A model generated the notes under the pieces. That model saw nothing but the letters and a program-made list of their open reading frames with translations, did no database searches and was not told the origin of the DNA. Source: Bacteroides sp. (GTDB taxonomy: Bacteria; Bacteroidota; Bacteroidia; Bacteroidales; Muribaculaceae). From it: a DNA stretch of 32,057 bases. The stretch spans positions 1 through 32,057 of the forward strand of contig JAAVDX010000025.1 in NCBI GenBank assembly GCA_014801585.1, written 5' to 3'. Shown in pieces: positions 14,843 through 31,543 of this stretch. Every line of letters starts with the position of its first letter. Position 1 is the stretch's first letter. The position numbers and the translations under genes were made by a program.

Positions 14843-16315
14843 ATGAAAACTATCAAATTCATATCAGCTTTGGCTCTGACTCTCGGACTCGCAGCTTGTG
14901 ACTCCTATGATCTGCCGAATCCTCCGGGCCAGTCTTACCCCGCACCCGACGGATATTTCGAGAATTCGGGTCTGGTCATGAGCGCTAACTCTGAAACGCT
15001 CAACCTCACCGAAGCCAACGCGGCTAATAAATTTGTCACTGTAGCCTCTATCTCGGAACTCGTTAATTTCCCCGAGGACTACACTCTCGCTATCGACATG
15101 AAGCTCGGCGAAGGCTCTAAGGCCAAAATCTATTCCACTACTATCGACAACATGGATGTCACTGTCAACCCCGACATCCTCAACGGCGCTGTACAGGATG
15201 TGCTCACTAAGCAGCCCGGCACTTACTCTATCCCCGTGGAGTTCATGGCCTACGCTGAACGCGGAACTACCCGCATGGGCCTCGGTGGCGTCGGCGCAAC
15301 TTATGGCAACGGCAACCTCTCTATCAAGACTTATGACGCTGCTAAGGTCATCGAAGATGCTTATTATCTCGTGCCCGTCGTGAGCGGTAAACCCGCCCTC
15401 GCGCAGGCTCTTAAGATGAACAACACTGCCGGCAACTCCGTATCACCCTACGATAACCCCGAGTTCGCTCTCCAGATTGATGTTCCCGAGAATTCTGAAT
15501 ATCTCTTCATGATCGCGCCTCAGTCGGCTGTGACTGCCGGTGACGCTTCTGCTCTCTATGGTGGTAACCCCTCTGCCGATGGCATGTCCGGTAAGCTCGG
15601 TACTTCCTACGAAGTCATCAAGATGCCCGTAGCTGGCAGCGTCCTCGTCACTGTCAACATGGAGCAGGATTCCTACACTGTCAACTATGCGTTCGACGTA
15701 CTCTACGCTGTGTCCGGCTCTACGCGTCCCGCCAACGCTATGGCTCTCTACACTGACAACTACATCAACTACTATGGTGTGACTGCCCTCAACCAGCGCT
15801 TCACTATCTACACTGCTGCTGACAAGTCGGGCGTTGCATTTAAGTATGATGAATCTGTTGAGCCCGAAATCAGCGAGAATGGCCTTGAGCAGTCCGGTGC
15901 GATCACTGCCGACACTGATGTTGTCGCTCAGATCCCCGTACCCATCAAGGGCAACTGCCTCTACTACGTTGATATCAACCTCGTGCAGCTCACCTACGAC
16001 GTGAAGGCTCTCCAGACTATGAGTGTCATCGGTGCAGGCAACGATTGGAACCTCGAGACTGCAACTCCGCTCACTCCCTCGAAGGACTTCAAGACATGGA
16101 CTGCTTCCGACGTTGAGATCGGTGACGAGTTCAAGATCAACTGTAACGGCGCTTGGGACTTCGACTTCGGCGGTGCTCAGGTACAGGATGTCGATGGCCA
16201 GTCTGTCTACAACATCAACTTCAAGGGCTCCAACATGCCCGCAAAGGCCGGTAAGTACGACGTGAAGATCGACTTCTCAACAATGCCTTACGTCCTCACC
16301 CTCACAAAGAAGTAA
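14843..16315 (+). CDS. susF: SusF-like outer-membrane starch-binding lipoprotein
   Basis: Lipoprotein of 490 residues, close to SusF (485). Lipobox GLAAC with Cys19. An N-terminal Ig-like SusE/F domain (VMSANSETLNLTEANAANKF, about 48-67) is followed by repeated beta-rich binding modules; the last is clear (MSVIGAGNDWNLETATPLTP, then FKTWTASDVEIGDEFKINCN), a CBM-like fold with a Trp pattern for glucan contacts. It holds starch at the cell surface and does not cut it. It is separated from susE by the hairpin at 14766-14814, so its expression may be lower. Its last codons (ACA AAG AAG TAA) are the beginning of the tandem repeat that follows. Confidence 0.8.
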   Translation: MKTIKFISALALTLGLAACDSYDLPNPPGQSYPAPDGYFENSGLVMSANSETLNLTEANAANKFVTVASISELVNFPEDYTLAIDMKLGEGSKAKIYSTTIDNMDVTVNPDILNGAVQDVLTKQPGTYSIPVEFMAYAERGTTRMGLGGVGATYGNGNLSIKTYDAAKVIEDAYYLVPVVSGKPALAQALKMNNTAGNSVSPYDNPEFALQIDVPENSEYLFMIAPQSAVTAGDASALYGGNPSADGMSGKLGTSYEVIKMPVAGSVLVTVNMEQDSYTVNYAFDVLYAVSGSTRPANAMALYTDNYINYYGVTALNQRFTIYTAADKSGVAFKYDESVEPEISENGLEQSGAITADTDVVAQIPVPIKGNCLYYVDINLVQLTYDVKALQTMSVIGAGNDWNLETATPLTPSKDFKTWTASDVEIGDEFKINCNGAWDFDFGGAQVQDVDGQSVYNINFKGSNMPAKAGKYDVKIDFSTMPYVLTLTKK

Positions 16316-16460
16316 TCCCCCAATACGTTGATTATAAGAACCTTGAAATTCTCAATCACGTATCAACCCTTTTAAGAAATCAATTCCCTCAAAGTGTTGA
16401 TTATAAGAACTTTAAAATTCTTAATCTCGTATCAACCATTACAAGGAAGTAATTCTTAAT
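16312..16460 (+). repeat. 69-bp tandem repeat overlapping the susF stop codon
   Basis: Two units with a period of 69 (about 16312-16380 and 16381-16449) share GTTGATTATAAGAAC, then AAATTCT-AATC-CGTATCAACC. A third partial copy of the beginning follows. The tail of the gene, ACAAAGAAGTAATC, reappears as TTTAAGAAATCAATTC and ACAAGGAAGTAATTC. Each unit also has GTTGAT and ATCAAC at opposite ends of an imperfect hairpin. Confidence 0.85.
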
Positions 16461-16474
16461 TAATCTGATATGAA

Positions 16475-16505
16475 AAGGCCCGACTCTCTGTCGGGCCTTT
16501 TTATT
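16475..16505 (+). terminator. Rho-independent terminator of the sus operon
   Basis: AAGGCCCGAC (16475-16484), loop TCTCT, then GTCGGGCCTT (16490-16499) and a T-rich tail. It closes the susC-susF operon after the tandem repeat. Confidence 0.9.
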
Positions 16506-16549
16506 CATCTTGTTATTTGCAATTATTTTTTAGGTTTTTTGTTAAAAAA

Positions 16550-16581
16550 TTTGTAAATTTAAAAAACATTACCTAATTTTG
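16550..16581 (+). promoter_or_regulatory. Bacteroidetes-type promoter of the starch-binding-like gene
   Basis: TTTG (16550-16553), 20-base spacer, TAATTTTG (16574-16581): both elements match the consensus. The start site would be near 16588, giving a leader of about 147 bases. The gene is therefore an independent transcription unit after the sus operon terminator. Confidence 0.8.
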
Positions 16582-16641
16582 TCGTCAAGTTCAGGCCGAC
16601 GAAAGTATCACCTGTCGTCACCTCACCCCGAAGAACTCAAT

Positions 16642-16689
16642 TTGATTCATACATTGACTCATACATTGACTCATAGATTGATTCATACA
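16642..16689 (+). repeat. Four 12-bp tandem repeats in a 5' leader
   Basis: Four exact-length units: TTGATTCATACA, TTGACTCATACA, TTGACTCATAGA, TTGATTCATACA. They lie inside the inferred leader of the gene at 16735, 46 bases before its ATG. The period keeps A/T-rich words in phase; a regulator-binding or RNA-stability role is possible. Confidence 0.9.
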
Positions 16690-16734
16690 TTTAACTAAAT
16701 AAATTTTTGTTTAACCAATAAATCTAACTTCAGA

Positions 16735-17625
16735 ATGAAGAAATTTTACGCATTCGCAGCAGCAGCTCTTCTCGCTACTGCAGCTAACGCCCAGAACCTC
16801 TACGTAACTGGCGCAGGTGAATTCGCTAACGGCGAATGGAACGCTGAAACTCCCGATGAGTTCTCTTTCGTTAACGGTCAGTACGAAATCGAAATCGCTA
16901 ACCTTACTCAGCTCAAAATCTCCACTGAATGTGGCGACTGGGACACTTTCAACGCAGGTGTCCTCGGCTGTGAATACGGCAAAGAACCCGGTGTAGCTGT
17001 TGCTCTCGAACCCGGCTACGACGCTAACATCGCTTGCCCCTGGAAGGGTGACTACAAGGTAGTCGTTTCCGGCGATATGTCTACTATCACTCTTACTACT
17101 ACCACTCCTCCTCCCTCCGGCCCCGTTACTATCTACCTCCGTGGCGATATGAACGGCTGGGGTGCTGAAGAAGCTTGGGCTCTCACTCCCGTGACTGAAA
17201 ACATCTGGAAGTTCGTCTTCGCTGAAGAACAGCAGATCGCTCCCGGCGACGGCTTCAAGATCGCTGACGCTGACTGGAACGAGTATAACGCAGGTGGCGA
17301 TGGCACTCCCGCTTCCCTCGACCTCGACTACGAAATCTTCAACGGTGGCAACCCCGCTAACATCACTCTCGACGAGACTTGCAACGGTGTGCTCTGGTTC
17401 GGTATGAATATCGACGGTCAGAACTGGATGTACCTCTCCAACGATAAGGACGCTACTCCCGATTGGTACGAAGGTGGCGACGATCAGGATGGCGTTGCTG
17501 CTGTCGCTGTGGCCAACGAAGCTCCCGTATACTTCAACCTCCAGGGTGTGCGCGTAGCTAACCCCGAAAACGGCATCTACGTGAAGGTCGTTGCAGGCAA
17601 AGCTACTAAAGCTGTCATCAAATAA
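16735..17625 (+). CDS. Secreted protein with two SusE/F-type starch-binding-like modules and a sorting-like tail
   Basis: Exported protein of 296 residues. Type I signal peptide (cleavage after AANAQ, about residue 20), no lipobox. Module 1 (21-125: LYVTGAGEFANGEWNAETP) and module 2 (134-245: VTIYLRGDMNGWGAEEAWAL) share the beta-sandwich start and Trp pattern of SusE/SusF binding domains and are joined by a TTTTTPPPSGP linker. After an acidic linker (YEGGDDQDG) comes a 45-residue tail, YFNLQGVRVANPENGIYVK with a basic end, resembling type IX secretion C-terminal sorting domains. It probably binds starch outside the cell or at the surface. No catalytic domain. It has its own promoter, and its 3' end runs into a tandem repeat. 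Confidence 0.7.
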   Translation: MKKFYAFAAAALLATAANAQNLYVTGAGEFANGEWNAETPDEFSFVNGQYEIEIANLTQLKISTECGDWDTFNAGVLGCEYGKEPGVAVALEPGYDANIACPWKGDYKVVVSGDMSTITLTTTTPPPSGPVTIYLRGDMNGWGAEEAWALTPVTENIWKFVFAEEQQIAPGDGFKIADADWNEYNAGGDGTPASLDLDYEIFNGGNPANITLDETCNGVLWFGMNIDGQNWMYLSNDKDATPDWYEGGDDQDGVAAVAVANEAPVYFNLQGVRVANPENGIYVKVVAGKATKAVIK

Positions 17626-17733
17626 GAATCCCTCCGAGAACTAAAAAATCCTCTACGAGAATCCGCTCCAAGAAGGAAGGATCCTCCACGAGAACTAAGG
17701 TCCTCTACGAGAATCTTATCAAAGACATAAACC
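17626..17733 (+). repeat. About 54-bp tandem repeat directly after the stop codon
   Basis: Two units (17626-17679, 17680-17733), each with two half-units of the form TCCTC(C/T)ACGAGAA: CGAGAACTAA recurs at 17635 and 17689, and CTACGAGAATC at 17654 and 17706. The gene end ATCAAATAAG is echoed at each unit end as CCAAGAAGGAAGG and ATCAAAGACATAA, so the tail is seen about three times, more weakly than for the sufB repeat. Confidence 0.75.
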
Positions 17734-17749
17734 CACATTTCTCTCCCCT

Positions 17750-17783
17750 GAGGGGCGACCAATCGGTCGCCCCTCTTTTTTTT
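17750..17783 (+). terminator. Rho-independent terminator
   Basis: GAGGGGCGACC (17750-17760), AATC loop, GGTCGCCCCTC (17765-17775), then eight T's. It ends the transcript of the starch-binding-like gene after the tandem repeat. Confidence 0.95.
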
Positions 17784-17884
17784 AAGCACCCTCACAAATC
17801 CTCTTATAATGCCCCCTACACCCTTTTTATCAATCTTTCCCTTAAAAAATCCTTTTTATCTCAAATTTTCTCAAACATTTTGAC

Positions 17885-17892
17885 TAACTTTG
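17885..17892 (+). promoter_or_regulatory. Promoter -7 element before sufB
   Basis: TAACTTTG matches TAnnTTTG exactly, 15 bases before the sufB ATG. No clear TTTG is at the right distance upstream. With a start site around 17899 the leader would be very short, nearly leaderless. Confidence 0.45.
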
Positions 17893-17906
17893 TGTAATTA
17901 TTATAT

Positions 17907-19376
17907 ATGGAAAAGCTTGGTCAAAATGATATGCCTTCGTCGAGCAGCGTAATCGATGAGGCTACTAACTCTGAATATAAATATGGTTTCACCTCAGACA
18001 TCGAGACGGATATCGTCCCGCCCGGACTGACGGAGGAGACCGTTAGACTCATATCCCGACTTAAAGGTGAGCCGGAATGGCTGCTGCAGTTCCGCCTCGA
18101 TGCCTTCCGATACTGGGAGACCCTGACGCCACCTCATTGGGCACATCTCAACATCCCGGAGATTGACTTTCAGGCAATCTCTTACTATGCCGCTCCAAAA
18201 AAGAAAGAGACCAAGAAGAGCCTCGATGAAGTCGATCCCGAACTTATAGATACCTTTAACAAACTCGGTATCTCCCTGCAGGAGCAGAAGCAGCTCGCCG
18301 GCGTTGCCGTCGATGCCGTAATGGACTCCGTCAGCGTCAAGACCACCCACCGCGAAAAACTTGCCGAACTCGGAGTGATCTTCTGCTCTTTCTCGGAAGC
18401 CGTGAAAGATTATCCCGACCTGGTCAGAAAATATCTCGGCACCGTCGTAAATTATCGCGACAATTATTATGCAGCCCTCAACTCGGCCGTCTTCTCCGAT
18501 GGCTCGTTCGTATATATTCCGAAAGGTGTCCGCTGCCCGATGGAACTCTCCACTTATTTCCGTATCAATGCCGCAGGTACCGGGCAGTTTGAACGCACTC
18601 TCATCGTGGCCGACGATGATGCCTACGTCTCTTACCTCGAAGGCTGCACAGCCCCCATGCGCGACGAAAATCAGCTCCATGCCGCAATCGTTGAAATCAT
18701 CGTTGAAGAACGCGCCGAAGTAAAGTATTCTACCGTGCAGAACTGGTATGCCGGTGACAAGGACGGTAAAGGTGGCATCTACAATTTCGTCACCAAGCGC
18801 GGCCTCTGCCGTGGCCATCGCTCTAAGATTTCATGGACTCAGGTGGAGACCGGTTCGGCCATCACTTGGAAATACCCCTCTTGCATCCTGAAAGGCGATG
18901 AATCCGTAGGCGAATTCTACAGCGTCGCCGTCACCAATAATCATCAGGAGGCCGACACGGGCACGAAGATGATTCATATCGGCAAAAATTCACGTTCTAC
19001 TATCGTCAGCAAGGGCATCTCGGCCGGCAAGTCGCAGAATTCCTATCGCGGTCTCGTCCGTATCGATAAGAATGCCACAGGCTGCCGCAATTTCACTCAG
19101 TGTGACTCTCTGCTGATGGGACCCGACTGCGGCGCCCACACTTTCCCTTATATCGACGTGCGCAACCGCGAATCAGTGGCAGAACATGAAGCGACCACCT
19201 CCAAAATCAATGAGGAACAGCTCTTCTATTGCCAGCAGCGCGGAATCCCCATGGAGGAAGCCGTAGGCCTCATCGTCAATGGCTACGCCAAGGAGGTCAT
19301 GAACAAACTCCCCATGGAATTTGCCGTCGAAGCCCAGAAACTCCTCCAGATCACTCTCGAAGGATCCGTAGGATAA
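17907..19376 (+). CDS. sufB: Fe-S cluster assembly protein SufB
   Basis: Scaffold subunit of the SufBCD complex, on which Fe-S clusters are built; 489 residues, normal for SufB. Seen: the N-terminal part ([21 protein letters not shown]), the beta-helix core ([37 protein letters not shown]) and the C-terminal cluster region ([23 protein letters not shown], then EHEATTSKI) with the conserved Cys and Glu, ending in the usual LEGSVG. Normally sufC and sufD follow at once; here the next gene is phoH. SufB needs SufC and SufD, so they must be elsewhere or be replaced. The final codons GGA TCC GTA GGA TAA are repeated twice more downstream. Confidence 0.95.
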
Positions 19377-19486
19377 CATCATTATTCCCCCCGAGGGTTA
19401 AACGGATCTGTAGGATAACACCATTACCCACCCGAGGGTTATACAGTTCCGTAGGATAACACCATTATTTCCCCCGAGGGTTAAAC
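19362..19486 (+). repeat. Three 42-bp tandem units repeating the sufB tail and stop codon
   Basis: Units at 19362-19403, 19404-19444 and 19445-19486 (42, 41, 42 bases). The first is the coding end of sufB (GSVG, stop) plus 27 bases. Unit 2 begins GGATCTGTAGGATAAC and unit 3 AGTTCCGTAGGATAAC, so GSVG-stop is kept (TCC to TCT is silent) or nearly kept. Each unit also has TAAC and GTTA able to pair around a CCC-GAGGG motif. The units fill the whole gap between sufB and phoH. Confidence 0.95.
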
Positions 19487-19494
19487 ATTACTCT

Positions 19495-20490
19495 ATGATT
19501 GAAAGAACCGTAATAGTCGACGGCATAGACCCTCAGACCTTCTATGGCGTCAACAACTCAAATATCAACCTCATCCGCAATCTCTTCCCGAAATTGCGAA
19601 TGGCGGCGCGTGGCAGTGTCATCAAGGTGATCGGTGAAGATTCAGAGACTGCTGAATTCGAGCGCAAGATAAAGGCTATCGAGGCATATGCCGCCAAATA
19701 CAACAAACTGACGGATGAAGTCATTATCGACATCATCAAAGGTCAGCCTCCTAAAGCCGTCAATTCGGAAGGGGTCATCATCTTCGGTCAGAGCGGCCGT
19801 CCGATCGCACCGCGAAATGCCAATCAGGCTAAAATGGTGAAATCTTTCGAGGAGAATGATCTTACATTCGCTCTCGGTCCGGCCGGTACGGGAAAGACCT
19901 ATATCGCAATCGCACTTGCAGTCGCAGCCTTGAAAAACCGTACCTGCAAGAAAATCATCCTCTCGCGTCCGGCCGTGGAAGCAGGTGAGAAACTCGGATT
20001 CCTCCCTGGCGACATGAAGGATAAGATCGATCCCTATCTCCGCCCCCTCTACGACGCTTTGGAAGATATGCTCCCGGCCGTAAAACTTAAGGAGTATATG
20101 GAAGCCGACACAATTCAGATCGCTCCGCTCGCCTTCATGCGCGGACGCACCCTCAACGATGCAATCATCATCCTCGACGAAGCCCAGAACACGACGAAAC
20201 ATCAGATGAAGATGTTCCTTACCCGACTCGGCGTCAATGCCAAGATGATTATCACCGGCGACGCTACTCAGATCGATCTGCCGAGAAGTGTGCAGTCGGG
20301 CCTGATGCAGGCGCTCCGGATTCTGCGCGGAGTGAAGGGTATCGGAATTATCGAATATGCCAAGAAGGATATCGTGCGTCATCCGCTCGTGCAGCGTATC
20401 GTCGACGCCTACGAAGCCCGAGAAGAGAAGGTGGATAAGGAGTTTGAAGAAAAACTCGCTACTTCCACCGAGGACAAACCGAAAGATTGA
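19495..20490 (+). CDS. phoH: PhoH-family ATPase
   Basis: Cytoplasmic P-loop ATPase of 331 residues, typical for PhoH-like (YbeZ-type) proteins, linked in other bacteria to ribosome/RNA metabolism and YbeY. An N-terminal RNA-binding-like region (VIDGIDPQTF...SVIKVIGED, 8-49) precedes the PhoH core: Walker A GPAGTGKT (128-135), a SRPAVEAGEKLGFLPGD segment (157-173), Walker B AIIILDEAQNTT (223-234), and ITGDATQIDLP (253-263). It is translated from the ATG at 19495, 8 bases after the last sufB repeat unit. No ybeY gene follows here. Its own 3' end also runs into a short tandem repeat. Confidence 0.9.
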   Translation: MIERTVIVDGIDPQTFYGVNNSNINLIRNLFPKLRMAARGSVIKVIGEDSETAEFERKIKAIEAYAAKYNKLTDEVIIDIIKGQPPKAVNSEGVIIFGQSGRPIAPRNANQAKMVKSFEENDLTFALGPAGTGKTYIAIALAVAALKNRTCKKIILSRPAVEAGEKLGFLPGDMKDKIDPYLRPLYDALEDMLPAVKLKEYMEADTIQIAPLAFMRGRTLNDAIIILDEAQNTTKHQMKMFLTRLGVNAKMIITGDATQIDLPRSVQSGLMQALRILRGVKGIGIIEYAKKDIVRHPLVQRIVDAYEAREEKVDKEFEEKLATSTEDKPKD

Positions 20491-20527
20491 GATTGTTTAA
20501 GAGGACGGTTGTTTAAGAAAAAAGCTG
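20481..20527 (+). repeat. 16-bp tandem repeat overlapping the phoH stop codon
   Basis: GAAAGATTGAGATTG (20481-20495, contains the TGA stop), TTTAAGAGGACGGTTG (20496-20511), TTTAAGAAAAAAGCTG (20512-20527) and a partial CTTAGAGTC. TTGTTTAAGA is repeated exactly at 20493 and 20509. Short and partly degenerate, but the same layout as the longer gene-tail repeats upstream. Confidence 0.55.
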
Positions 20528-21881: not shown

Positions 21882-24662
21882 ATGTTAAAATTCAAACTTC
21901 TGACTATCTGCGCCATGATTGCGGCAGCCTTCGGTCTGCAGGCTCAGGTCGTCACCTACGAGCCTGATCCGCTCTACGACAACAGTGAGAATGTCGTGAT
22001 CTATTTCCACGCCGATCAGGGCAACAAGGGCCTTGCCAATCAGGCCGAATCCGTGAAGATCTATGCCCACACAGGAGTAATCACTTCCAATTCCAAGGAT
22101 AACTCCGACTGGAAATATGCCACTGACTGGCTCGACAATTCCGCCAAGTATCTTCTGACCTACGTCTCTCCGAATCTCTACAAACTTGAGATCGGCAACA
22201 TCAAGACTTTCTACAACATTAAGTCAACATCGGAAGTAGTGAAGAGTCTGGTCTTCGTATTCCGTAACTCTACGGGCTCGAAGGAAGGCAAGGGCACGGG
22301 CGGCGCTGATATCACAGTCCCCGTCGTTTCAACTGCTCTTCAGCTGGATTTCACCTCCGACGCACCTTCCACTACCATCTCTGCCGAGAATGCTACCGTG
22401 AAGTTTGACTTCACTTCAAATCAGGTGGCCGATGAGATGTGGATCGCAGTCAACGGTATCGCCATTGCTGAAGGCACTAATATCAAGGAACTCCACGCCT
22501 CCTACACATTCACCGAACCGGGCGCATATAACGTCTACGGCAACGTGAAGATCAACGGCAAGCAGTCGTCGAAAGGTTTCCGTCTGACCTACGTCAACGC
22601 TTCCGCTCAGAAAGATTATCCCGGCGGTGTGCCCAAAATGGGCGCTGTACGTGCCGACAACGGTGACGTCCTCTTCTGTCTCGCAGCTCCGCAGAAACTC
22701 TCCTGCGAACTCATCGGTTCATGGAATGATTATGCTTCCGACCCCAACCAGAAGATGTACTATCAGGACTACGATGGCCAGCGCTATTTCTGGACCTCCG
22801 TCAGCGGTCTCGACAACACTTCGATGTATTTCTACTACTATAATGTAGACGAAGGCACAAAGGTAGGCGATCCTTATGCAAAACTTATTCTCGACCCCTC
22901 GAATGATAAATATATTCCCGAAAGCGTCTATCCCAATCTCCCGGCATATCCTTCGGATAAGGTGACAGGCAGCGTGCCTCTGGCAGTATATCAGGAGAAT
23001 ATCAACGACTATAACTGGACCGACGATGACTTCAAACCCGTAGCTAAGAAAGATCTCGTCATCTATGAGCTCCTTTTCCGTGACTTCACCGGCACTGAAG
23101 GTAAGGCCAACGGCAACGGCACCGTGAAGCTTGCACTCGAGAAGCTCCCCTATCTGAAGGAACTCGGAGTCAACGCCATCGAGGTGCTTCCGATCAATGA
23201 ATTCAACGGCAATATCTCCTGGGGCTATAATCCCAACTTCTACTTTGCTCCCGATAAGGCATATGGTACTCCCGATGATTATAAGGAATTCATCAACACA
23301 TGCCATGAAAACGGTATTGCCGTGATTCTCGATATGGTATTCAACCAGACCGACTGGCTCCACCCCTGGTATCGTATGTATCCCGCCGGATCCAACCCGA
23401 TGTATAACGCTGACGCCCCCCACGCCTACAGCGTGCTCAACGACGTCAATCAGGGTCATCCTCTGATCCGCCAGCAGTGGAAGGACGTTGTAAAATACTG
23501 GATGGAGGAATATCACATCGACGGCTATCGTTTCGACCTCGTAAAGGGTCTCGGCGACAATGATTCCTATGCCAACAGCGGCGACTCGGGCACAAACGCC
23601 TACAACGCTTCTCGCGTAGCCAACATGCACGCTATTCAGGAAGCCATGAATGAAGTGAACCCGGATGCTTACTTCATCAATGAGAATCTCGCAGGCGCTA
23701 AGGAAGAAAACGAAATGGCTGCGTTCGGCATGCTCAACTGGGCTAATGTGAATACTGAAGGATGCCAGTACGCGATGGGCTTCTCAAGCAATTCCGGCCT
23801 GCAGCGCATGTGGGCTGTGAAGGATTCCCGCACAGTCAATTCTACTGTAGCTTACCTTGAGTCTCACGACGAAGAGCGCCTTGCCTACAAGCAGATCACT
23901 TTCGGCAATGCCAATATCAAGAATAATCATCAGGCACAGTGTCGTCGTCTCGGTTCGGCCGCTGCCCAGATGATTCTCGTCCCCGGAGCTCACATGATCT
24001 GGGAATTCTCGGAAATGGGCAACGCTCAGTCAACGAAGAATGCCGATGGCGGTAATAATACCGACCCGAAGATCGTCAACTGGAATCTCCTTCAGGATCC
24101 CGACAACTATGGCCTTTATCGCAACTATTGCGAACTTATCGATATACGTACAGCCAACCCCGATCTCTTCGATGAGGCTGCCTCCTACAGCGCAGCGGTT
24201 ACGGCCAGCGATTGGGCTAAAGGCCGCACAATCATCTCCACAACTCCGGAGAAGGAGCTTATATGCGCCATCAACCCCGGCATGTCGACCGAACTGACAA
24301 TCCCCATCGCCTTCTCTTCTACTAAGGAGAGCGATTATAAGATTGCCTCTAAGTCATACGCAACTAATCCGACATTTGACGTAGCAGCCGGCACAGTAAC
24401 AGTTCCTGCCAACAGTTATGTTGTACTGGTCAACAATAAGGTTTCTGCTGTAGAGGGTATCGAGGCTGCCGACTCTTCACTGGCAGTTGCTACCGGTGCA
24501 GGCAGCCTGACAGTGGCAGGTGCTACGGATGGCATCGAGATCTACGGCCTTGACGGCACACTCCGCTACACTTCCGCCTCCGATGCAGCCGACGTAGCTC
24601 TCCCCGCCGGACTCTACATCGTGCGCAGCGGCAAGGAATCCCGCAAAGCCATCGTAAGATAA
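21882..24662 (+). CDS. Secreted GH13 alpha-amylase with binding modules and sorting-like tail
   Basis: Extracellular or surface starch hydrolase of 926 residues, likely the partner that plays the role of SusG. Type I signal peptide (1-22, ending LQAQ) without a lipobox Cys, unlike SusG. N-terminal beta domain 24-148; an Ig-like domain 150-240; a CBM48-like domain 252-340; GH13 barrel about 390-760 with Asp552 (DGYRFDLVKG, nucleophile), Glu601 (YFINENLAG, acid/base) and Asp663 (ESHDEER); C-terminal beta domain; then a tail, IEIYGLDGTLRYTS...LPAGLYIVRSGKES with a basic end, resembling a type IX sorting domain. It stands alone, 5.6 kb from susF, and ends in a strong terminator. No consensus promoter was found upstream. 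Confidence 0.88.
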   Translation: MLKFKLLTICAMIAAAFGLQAQVVTYEPDPLYDNSENVVIYFHADQGNKGLANQAESVKIYAHTGVITSNSKDNSDWKYATDWLDNSAKYLLTYVSPNLYKLEIGNIKTFYNIKSTSEVVKSLVFVFRNSTGSKEGKGTGGADITVPVVSTALQLDFTSDAPSTTISAENATVKFDFTSNQVADEMWIAVNGIAIAEGTNIKELHASYTFTEPGAYNVYGNVKINGKQSSKGFRLTYVNASAQKDYPGGVPKMGAVRADNGDVLFCLAAPQKLSCELIGSWNDYASDPNQKMYYQDYDGQRYFWTSVSGLDNTSMYFYYYNVDEGTKVGDPYAKLILDPSNDKYIPESVYPNLPAYPSDKVTGSVPLAVYQENINDYNWTDDDFKPVAKKDLVIYELLFRDFTGTEGKANGNGTVKLALEKLPYLKELGVNAIEVLPINEFNGNISWGYNPNFYFAPDKAYGTPDDYKEFINTCHENGIAVILDMVFNQTDWLHPWYRMYPAGSNPMYNADAPHAYSVLNDVNQGHPLIRQQWKDVVKYWMEEYHIDGYRFDLVKGLGDNDSYANSGDSGTNAYNASRVANMHAIQEAMNEVNPDAYFINENLAGAKEENEMAAFGMLNWANVNTEGCQYAMGFSSNSGLQRMWAVKDSRTVNSTVAYLESHDEERLAYKQITFGNANIKNNHQAQCRRLGSAAAQMILVPGAHMIWEFSEMGNAQSTKNADGGNNTDPKIVNWNLLQDPDNYGLYRNYCELIDIRTANPDLFDEAASYSAAVTASDWAKGRTIISTTPEKELICAINPGMSTELTIPIAFSSTKESDYKIASKSYATNPTFDVAAGTVTVPANSYVVLVNNKVSAVEGIEAADSSLAVATGAGSLTVAGATDGIEIYGLDGTLRYTSASDAADVALPAGLYIVRSGKESRKAIVR

Positions 24663-31470: not shown

Positions 31471-31543
31471 CATTTATCGATCCTTTTTATCAATCTTTTT
31501 TGTCAATTCTTTTTTATTGCTGTCCGATAAAAGTAGAATAGTG

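Follow-up and report, generated by a model that had tools for sequence, protein, structure and literature searches.

Tandem duplications across stop codons in a Muribaculaceae genome look like ordinary minisatellites with a stop/start asymmetry

Introduction

Why should neighboring genes be followed by tandem repeats that begin inside the gene and repeat its stop codon? The question is raised by a contig of 32,057 nucleotides (JAAVDX010000025.1, whose full length is called the window here) from a Bacteroides sp. genome placed in the Muribaculaceae (GCA_014801585.1), a draft of 2.23 Mb in 39 contigs with a completeness of 79.75%. In an earlier, sequence-only reading of the window, four consecutive genes (susF-like, starch-binding-like, sufB and phoH) were each said to carry such a repeat, and a process acting locally or a selected RNA 3'-end structure was proposed. 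In a search of contigs from other genomes, the window sufB had its best match (94% identity) in a genome labelled uncultured Porphyromonadaceae, followed by Bacteroides- and Muribaculaceae-labelled genomes, and the source is taken to be a Muribaculaceae-like bacterium of the gut. Intergenic minisatellites, or VNTR loci, are well known in bacteria and have units of tens of base pairs, few copies, a locus-specific sequence and a fast turnover between relatives.

Results

The susF-like gene (14843..16315, forward strand, as for all window features whose coordinates are written in this form) is followed by 2.2 copies of a 69-bp unit (16304..16455; TRF score 192, also recovered by self-alignment), and the first 12 nucleotides of this array are the three terminal codons of the gene and TAA. 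Likewise, sufB (17907..19376; domains SUFBD_core and SufBD_N) is followed by 3.0 copies of a unit of 41-42 bp (19363..19487; TRF period 41, score 187), in which unit 1 holds the last sufB codons and the stop, the first 14 nucleotides being coding sequence and TAA. The self-alignment scores of the two arrays were 75 and 96 compared with null maxima of 23 and 24, respectively, and none of 60 resamples was as good in either case. The earlier statement that each gene tail is seen about three times is accurate for sufB, where the tail is present three times, and holds in part for the susF-like gene, where two clear occurrences and one decayed occurrence were found.

The repeat downstream of the starch-binding-like gene (16735..17625) is a weaker two-copy array (17624..17715). 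It is above chance (self-alignment score 36, 0 of 60 resamples as good), and its copies, 17624-17663 and 17677-17715, are 80% identical. However, copy 1 starts with the final two stop bases and thus contains no codon, so that the array adjoins the stop. A weaker match between 17620-17640 and 17693-17713 (71% over 21 nt) takes in the last codon, and to this extent the tail can be called repeated, but the 18-nt tail scores only 12, a value reached at 283 of 625 stops. The 16-bp repeat claimed 3' of the phoH-like gene (19495..20490; repeat at 20493..20524) is at chance level. It consists of a single exact 10-bp repeat beginning 3' of the stop, which was equalled in 9 of 60 resamples; TRF reported no row for it even with a score threshold of 30, and the score of the phoH tail was matched or beaten at 372 of 625 stops. 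Head-to-tail units alike beyond chance were therefore found after three of the genes but not after phoH, and repeats that cross the stop after two, the susF-like gene and sufB.

Other parts of the earlier description were confirmed. No likeness above that of shuffles was observed among the four repeat regions, and terminator-like hairpins were found 3' of the susF array (16470..16504) and of the starch-binding-like gene (17750..17775), with none on that strand from the end of sufB to position 22000. The susF-like and starch-binding-like genes keep the names given by that reading; a Pfam domain search found no domain in either. The window also contains a 12-bp x 4.2 tandem array identified by TRF (16642..16691, unit TTGACTCATACA), which lies 5' of the starch-binding-like gene, enters neither gene and occupies a possible promoter or leader of that gene. 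A 13-bp unit, TTTATCAATCTTT, is found in tandem at 31473-31517 (TRF), and one stretch matching it lies at about 17824-17838, between the starch-binding-like gene and sufB.

When used as DNA queries against 111 genus genomes, a search that could miss strongly decayed copies, the susF and sufB arrays each matched only their own locus in their own genome (7 of 11 and 2 of 2 own-genome candidates scored, respectively). With one match each in the own genome, none in the 110 other congeners and units unlike each other, the arrays do not look like a dispersed element, in support of the earlier statement. Of 14 congeners searched, 12 had matches to the susF-like gene. In five of these 12 (loci L173-L177 and L186-L190), the susF and starch-binding homologues were followed to their ends, and at a TRF score of 30 neither had a stop-crossing array in any of the five. 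By eye, most of them have tens of bases 3' of the stop and then a terminator-like hairpin. In L186, a 33-bp array lies 66-143 nt 3' of the stop of the starch-binding homologue.

The sufB 3' spacer was readable in 25 of 26 congener loci and, by eye, was either unrelated to that of the window or missing. In 3 of the 25, sufB and the next gene overlap at ATGA and have no spacer, while the remaining spacers are short or unrelated, some with repeats of their own. In L013, the spacer holds 4.1 copies of a 38-bp unit, with a GGACGCGCC...GGCGCGTCC palindrome, and similar GTAGGGACGCATCCCGATGCGTCC stretches are found 3' of the starch-binding homologue in L190.

The sufB tail itself (GSVG-stop or a near variant) is present in relatives, which identifies the copy nearest the gene as the original and those further out as derived. 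The susF tail, KK-stop, is present in four of the five relatives read to the end, L175 being without it. Unit 1 of each array thus contains the true, conserved end of its gene. Among 102 distinct sufB stops from this genus and from other, mostly Bacteroidota-labelled, genomes, stop-crossing arrays were found at three; their units, of 41, 16 and 18 bp, are unrelated, which points to independent origins. At 14 of the 102, an array starts within 100 nt. sufB was also considered as a hot spot and rejected as such, since 3 in 102 is close to the general rate (9 crossers in 613 spacers of the own-genome sample). Array copies are 82-88% identical in sufB and 79% in susF, a difference of 12-21%, whereas at fourfold sites in sufB the window differs from seven relatives by 0.48-0.67, which makes the arrays younger than those splits. 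The two window arrays are real, young, local and independent.

Arrays were then counted in spacers of up to 600 bp (TRF score 50, period at least 10), with thresholds and a deduplication rule of our own choice. In 798,603 bases of the own genome, 9 of 46 spacer arrays cross a stop and none a start; looser counting rules gave 8 and 12 stop-crossers. The corresponding numbers of stop-crossers were 16 of 71 in congener stretches (1,169,699 bases; two of these also cross a start) and 3 of 22 in the best 29 loci from contigs of other genomes (491,221 bases), while 51 more distant loci (788,743 bases) contained six stop-crossers and two start-crossers among 39 arrays. The whole census covers 3.2 Mb of related DNA and 178 spacer arrays, of which 34 cross a stop and 4 a start (2 cross both), with starts taken, like the genes, from a purpose-written dicodon finder, so that start-crossers may be undercounted. 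Identical 100-base stretches are common to L034/L135, L035/L051, L054/L160, L214/L215 and L089/L096, and two pairs of identical arrays, none crossing, were counted. Spacer arrays as such are above chance, with 40 compared to 0-3 in five resamples.

The earlier reading implied that stop-crossing repeats are more frequent than expected. At a crossing threshold of 6 nt, random placement of a unit within the same spacers predicts 18.7-29.8 stop-crossers and 16.2-25.4 start-crossers, depending on an assumed TRF end extension of 0-8 nt, where 33 and 3 were scored. This null varies with both the crossing threshold and the end extension, and stop-crossing exceeded it in all 15 settings, from 1.1-fold (33 versus 29.8) to 4.5-fold (15 versus 3.3). 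The expectation is thus borne out in direction, but at the 6-nt threshold the excess is only 1.1 to 1.8 times random placement, and it is accompanied by a depletion of start-crossing. Start-crossers are clearly too few at thresholds of 4-8 nt (3-6 versus 9.9-30.2 expected), and less clearly so at 10 and 14 nt (3 versus 3.2-16.2 expected). In convergent spacers, 8 of 31 arrays cross a stop compared with 3.8 expected; as such spacers have no start, purging at starts cannot account for their stop excess.

A similar asymmetry was obtained without TRF, by searching for the 18-nt gene tail within 150 nt downstream at a score of at least 22. In the three nearer sets, the tail recurs downstream in 23 of 1832 genes (shuffled 1) and the head recurs upstream in 5 of 1835 (shuffled 2; tails versus heads, Fisher p 0.0005). 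No asymmetry was observed in the 51 distant loci (tails 3 of 679, heads 2 of 690; shuffled 0 and 0), and the difference in tail repeats between nearer and distant sets (23 of 1832 versus 3 of 679) was not significant (p 0.08). A lineage-specific excess of arrays was rejected, as the three nearer sets have 0.57-0.72 arrays per kb of spacer and the distant set has 0.62. In a control of 200 kb of E. coli MG1655, only four arrays were found (three intergenic, one genic), none of them crossing, a number too small for a comparison; tails recurred in 0 of 171 genes (shuffled 1) and heads in 1 of 170 (shuffled 0), with genes from the purpose-written finder and not from the listed annotation.

Array edges were found at every depth around the stop: 31 lie more than 6 nt inside the gene and 15 up to 6 nt inside, followed by 20, 14, 14 and 6 in successive 10-nt intervals beyond it. 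The corresponding numbers at starts are 3, 7, 22, 10, 8 and 11. Arrays penetrate genes by 6 nt up to more than one whole unit. The stop itself is therefore unmarked, which fits breakpoints that ignore it. In 45 two-copy arrays of at least 95% identity, the number of extra matched bases at the junction was 0 in 14, 1 in 9 and at least 2 in 15, and the other 7 are shorter than two full units. As 23 of the 45 junctions have no or one extra base, long pre-existing direct repeats are unnecessary. Two congener loci have two-copy duplications of 308 bp (L222:19043-19659) and 215 bp (L223:2956-3387) that cross gene ends with a 100% match; their identity suggests a recent origin, unless the assembly produced it.

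Discussion

The window arrays are most probably young, lineage-specific tandem duplications, that is, minisatellites, with breakpoints that fell by chance inside a gene end and with selection tolerating those that cross a stop. A segment of tens of base pairs, running from the final codons through the stop into the spacer, would have been duplicated head to tail once or twice; the copy next to the gene would then retain the gene's true end, and the others would drift. The molecular route may have been template slippage or microhomology-poor strand switching. Such short duplications would arise anywhere in spacers. One that spans a start would place a second start and leader upstream and would usually be purged, whereas one that spans a stop would leave the first gene copy intact and the protein unchanged, and could persist. 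Selection of this kind would explain the asymmetry between stops and starts, and the class would recur because duplicating a stop is harmless to the protein while duplicating a start is usually lost. The earlier suggestion of a process acting locally on four consecutive genes was not supported, as only two of them have repeats that cross the stop. At the genome's own rate, the probability of two or more stop-crossers among about 22 genes is about 0.04-0.05, and the window was singled out for them, so that no local process is needed.

An unlikely alternative is a mutational bias toward gene 3' ends, in which short tandem duplications around stops would be promoted by transcription that stalls or terminates, or by R-loops close to the terminator, and gene tails would be duplicated more often than other sites. 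It would account for a stop excess over uniform placement in every setting, and the excess in convergent spacers is its best hint, albeit a small one. Of 72 non-crossing arrays in same-strand spacers, 46 are also closer to the stop (a count made before the final 40 congener stretches joined the sample), and the scarcity of junction homology in two-copy arrays of at least 95% identity agrees with it. However, how large the excess appears varies with the null chosen, some of it can come from constraint at the promoter end of spacers, and no terminator-like site lies in the sufB-phoH spacer. It is likewise doubtful that gene 3' ends in this lineage are mutational hot spots for a short, microhomology-poor tandem duplication coupled to the termination of transcription or translation, with about 1 in 80 genes carrying a decaying tail copy.

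Chance duplication tolerated at stops also has to be weighed against a selected RNA 3'-end structure, by which the repeats would stabilize the 3' end of the mRNA or shield the following gene. Both upstream arrays are positioned between the stop and the terminator-like site, and the susF array folds better than most shuffles even when its terminator is left out (z -2.30, matched by 4 of 200 shuffles; unit 1 alone, z -3.58). This leaves room for some RNA structure, as a local hairpin in the susF array and not as a shared feature. The sufB array (z -0.25) is no better than shuffles, however, and the starch-binding array (z -0.71) resembles them, while susF unit 2 (z -1.80) pairs unlike unit 1 and the z of -5.74 for the susF array including its terminator is driven by the latter. 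With this weak folding, and with the arrays unmatched in the other 110 genomes of the genus and, by eye, in relatives, a conserved 3'-end element was rejected, and the selected structure proposed earlier appears improbable. Even less can be said for a dispersed MITE- or MIRU-like mobile element that carries the tandem units and has gene ends as its insertion sites. Such elements occur in Bacteroidales (BrickBuilt; PMC4596501) and in mycobacteria (MIRU; PMC12548453), and this genome has a dispersed heptamer element, but an element of this type should be present in several copies per genome, whereas each array has one own-genome match (7 of 11 candidates scored for susF) and its first copy is the gene's own end; this candidate was rejected. 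Finally, an assembly artefact would be conceivable in so fragmented and incomplete a draft, but copies that differ by 12-21% are not readily produced by misassembling a single copy, and we regard this as extremely improbable.

The window arrays resemble bacterial minisatellites in unit size, low copy number, locus-specific sequence and turnover, as far as one genome of the species allows the comparison, and they differ in that unit 1 takes in a gene tail and its stop. Repeat units that touch flanking codons between genes are also a feature of MIRUs, as in the senX3-regX3 case. MIRUs appear to insert at start codons, their ORF then being coupled to the gene (PMC12548453); they are dispersed, unlike the window arrays, which are single-locus and derived from the gene's own end. 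The BrickBuilt MITE of Porphyromonas gingivalis ATCC 33277 is likewise an intergenic minisatellite in a Bacteroidales genome, but it has 19 occurrences and lies 49-591 nt from coding sequence (PMC4596501), whereas the window arrays are single and enter the gene. The TAACTGA heptamer direct repeats are also intergenic, and 14 of 169 sets run into the upstream gene's end, 13 of these at its stop in forward orientation (PMC4679880); they consist of one dispersed heptamer, in contrast to the long, gene-specific units of the window. Among the matches listed in literature searches, no title or abstract beginning dealt with stop-crossing tandem duplication as a class, which is weak evidence of absence.

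A dispersed heptamer element of another kind, (AAGTAAT)n, was observed elsewhere in the own genome (L033-L052 and L133-L152), typically with about four heptamers (for example at L038:5432, L143:17476 and L041:8786) and often adjoining a GGCGC...GCGCC hairpin or TTGAACTTGCGAAACTTAAAA. Among the places listed, 28 lie in 0.8 Mb of the own genome and none in the window. A perfect 21-bp version is present in 3 of 111 genus genomes, with 11 overlapping hits in the own genome, 26 in G084 and 1 in G068. The element gives TAA in every frame and resembles the TAACTGA heptamers (PMC4679880). It may be a better lead than the gene-end arrays.

Taken together, the gene-end arrays look like ordinary minisatellites with an instructive stop/start asymmetry, produced by no dedicated system, and they mainly warn that a gene tail repeated downstream requires no special mechanism. 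For short tandem duplications in the sampled sequence, stop-crossers outnumber start-crossers about eightfold (34 versus 4), a simple and testable pattern. If mutation and not selection caused the excess on the stop side, C-terminal novelty would arise continually from gene ends, and if gene 3' ends were indeed hot spots, tail duplications would seed new C-termini once the first stop is lost.
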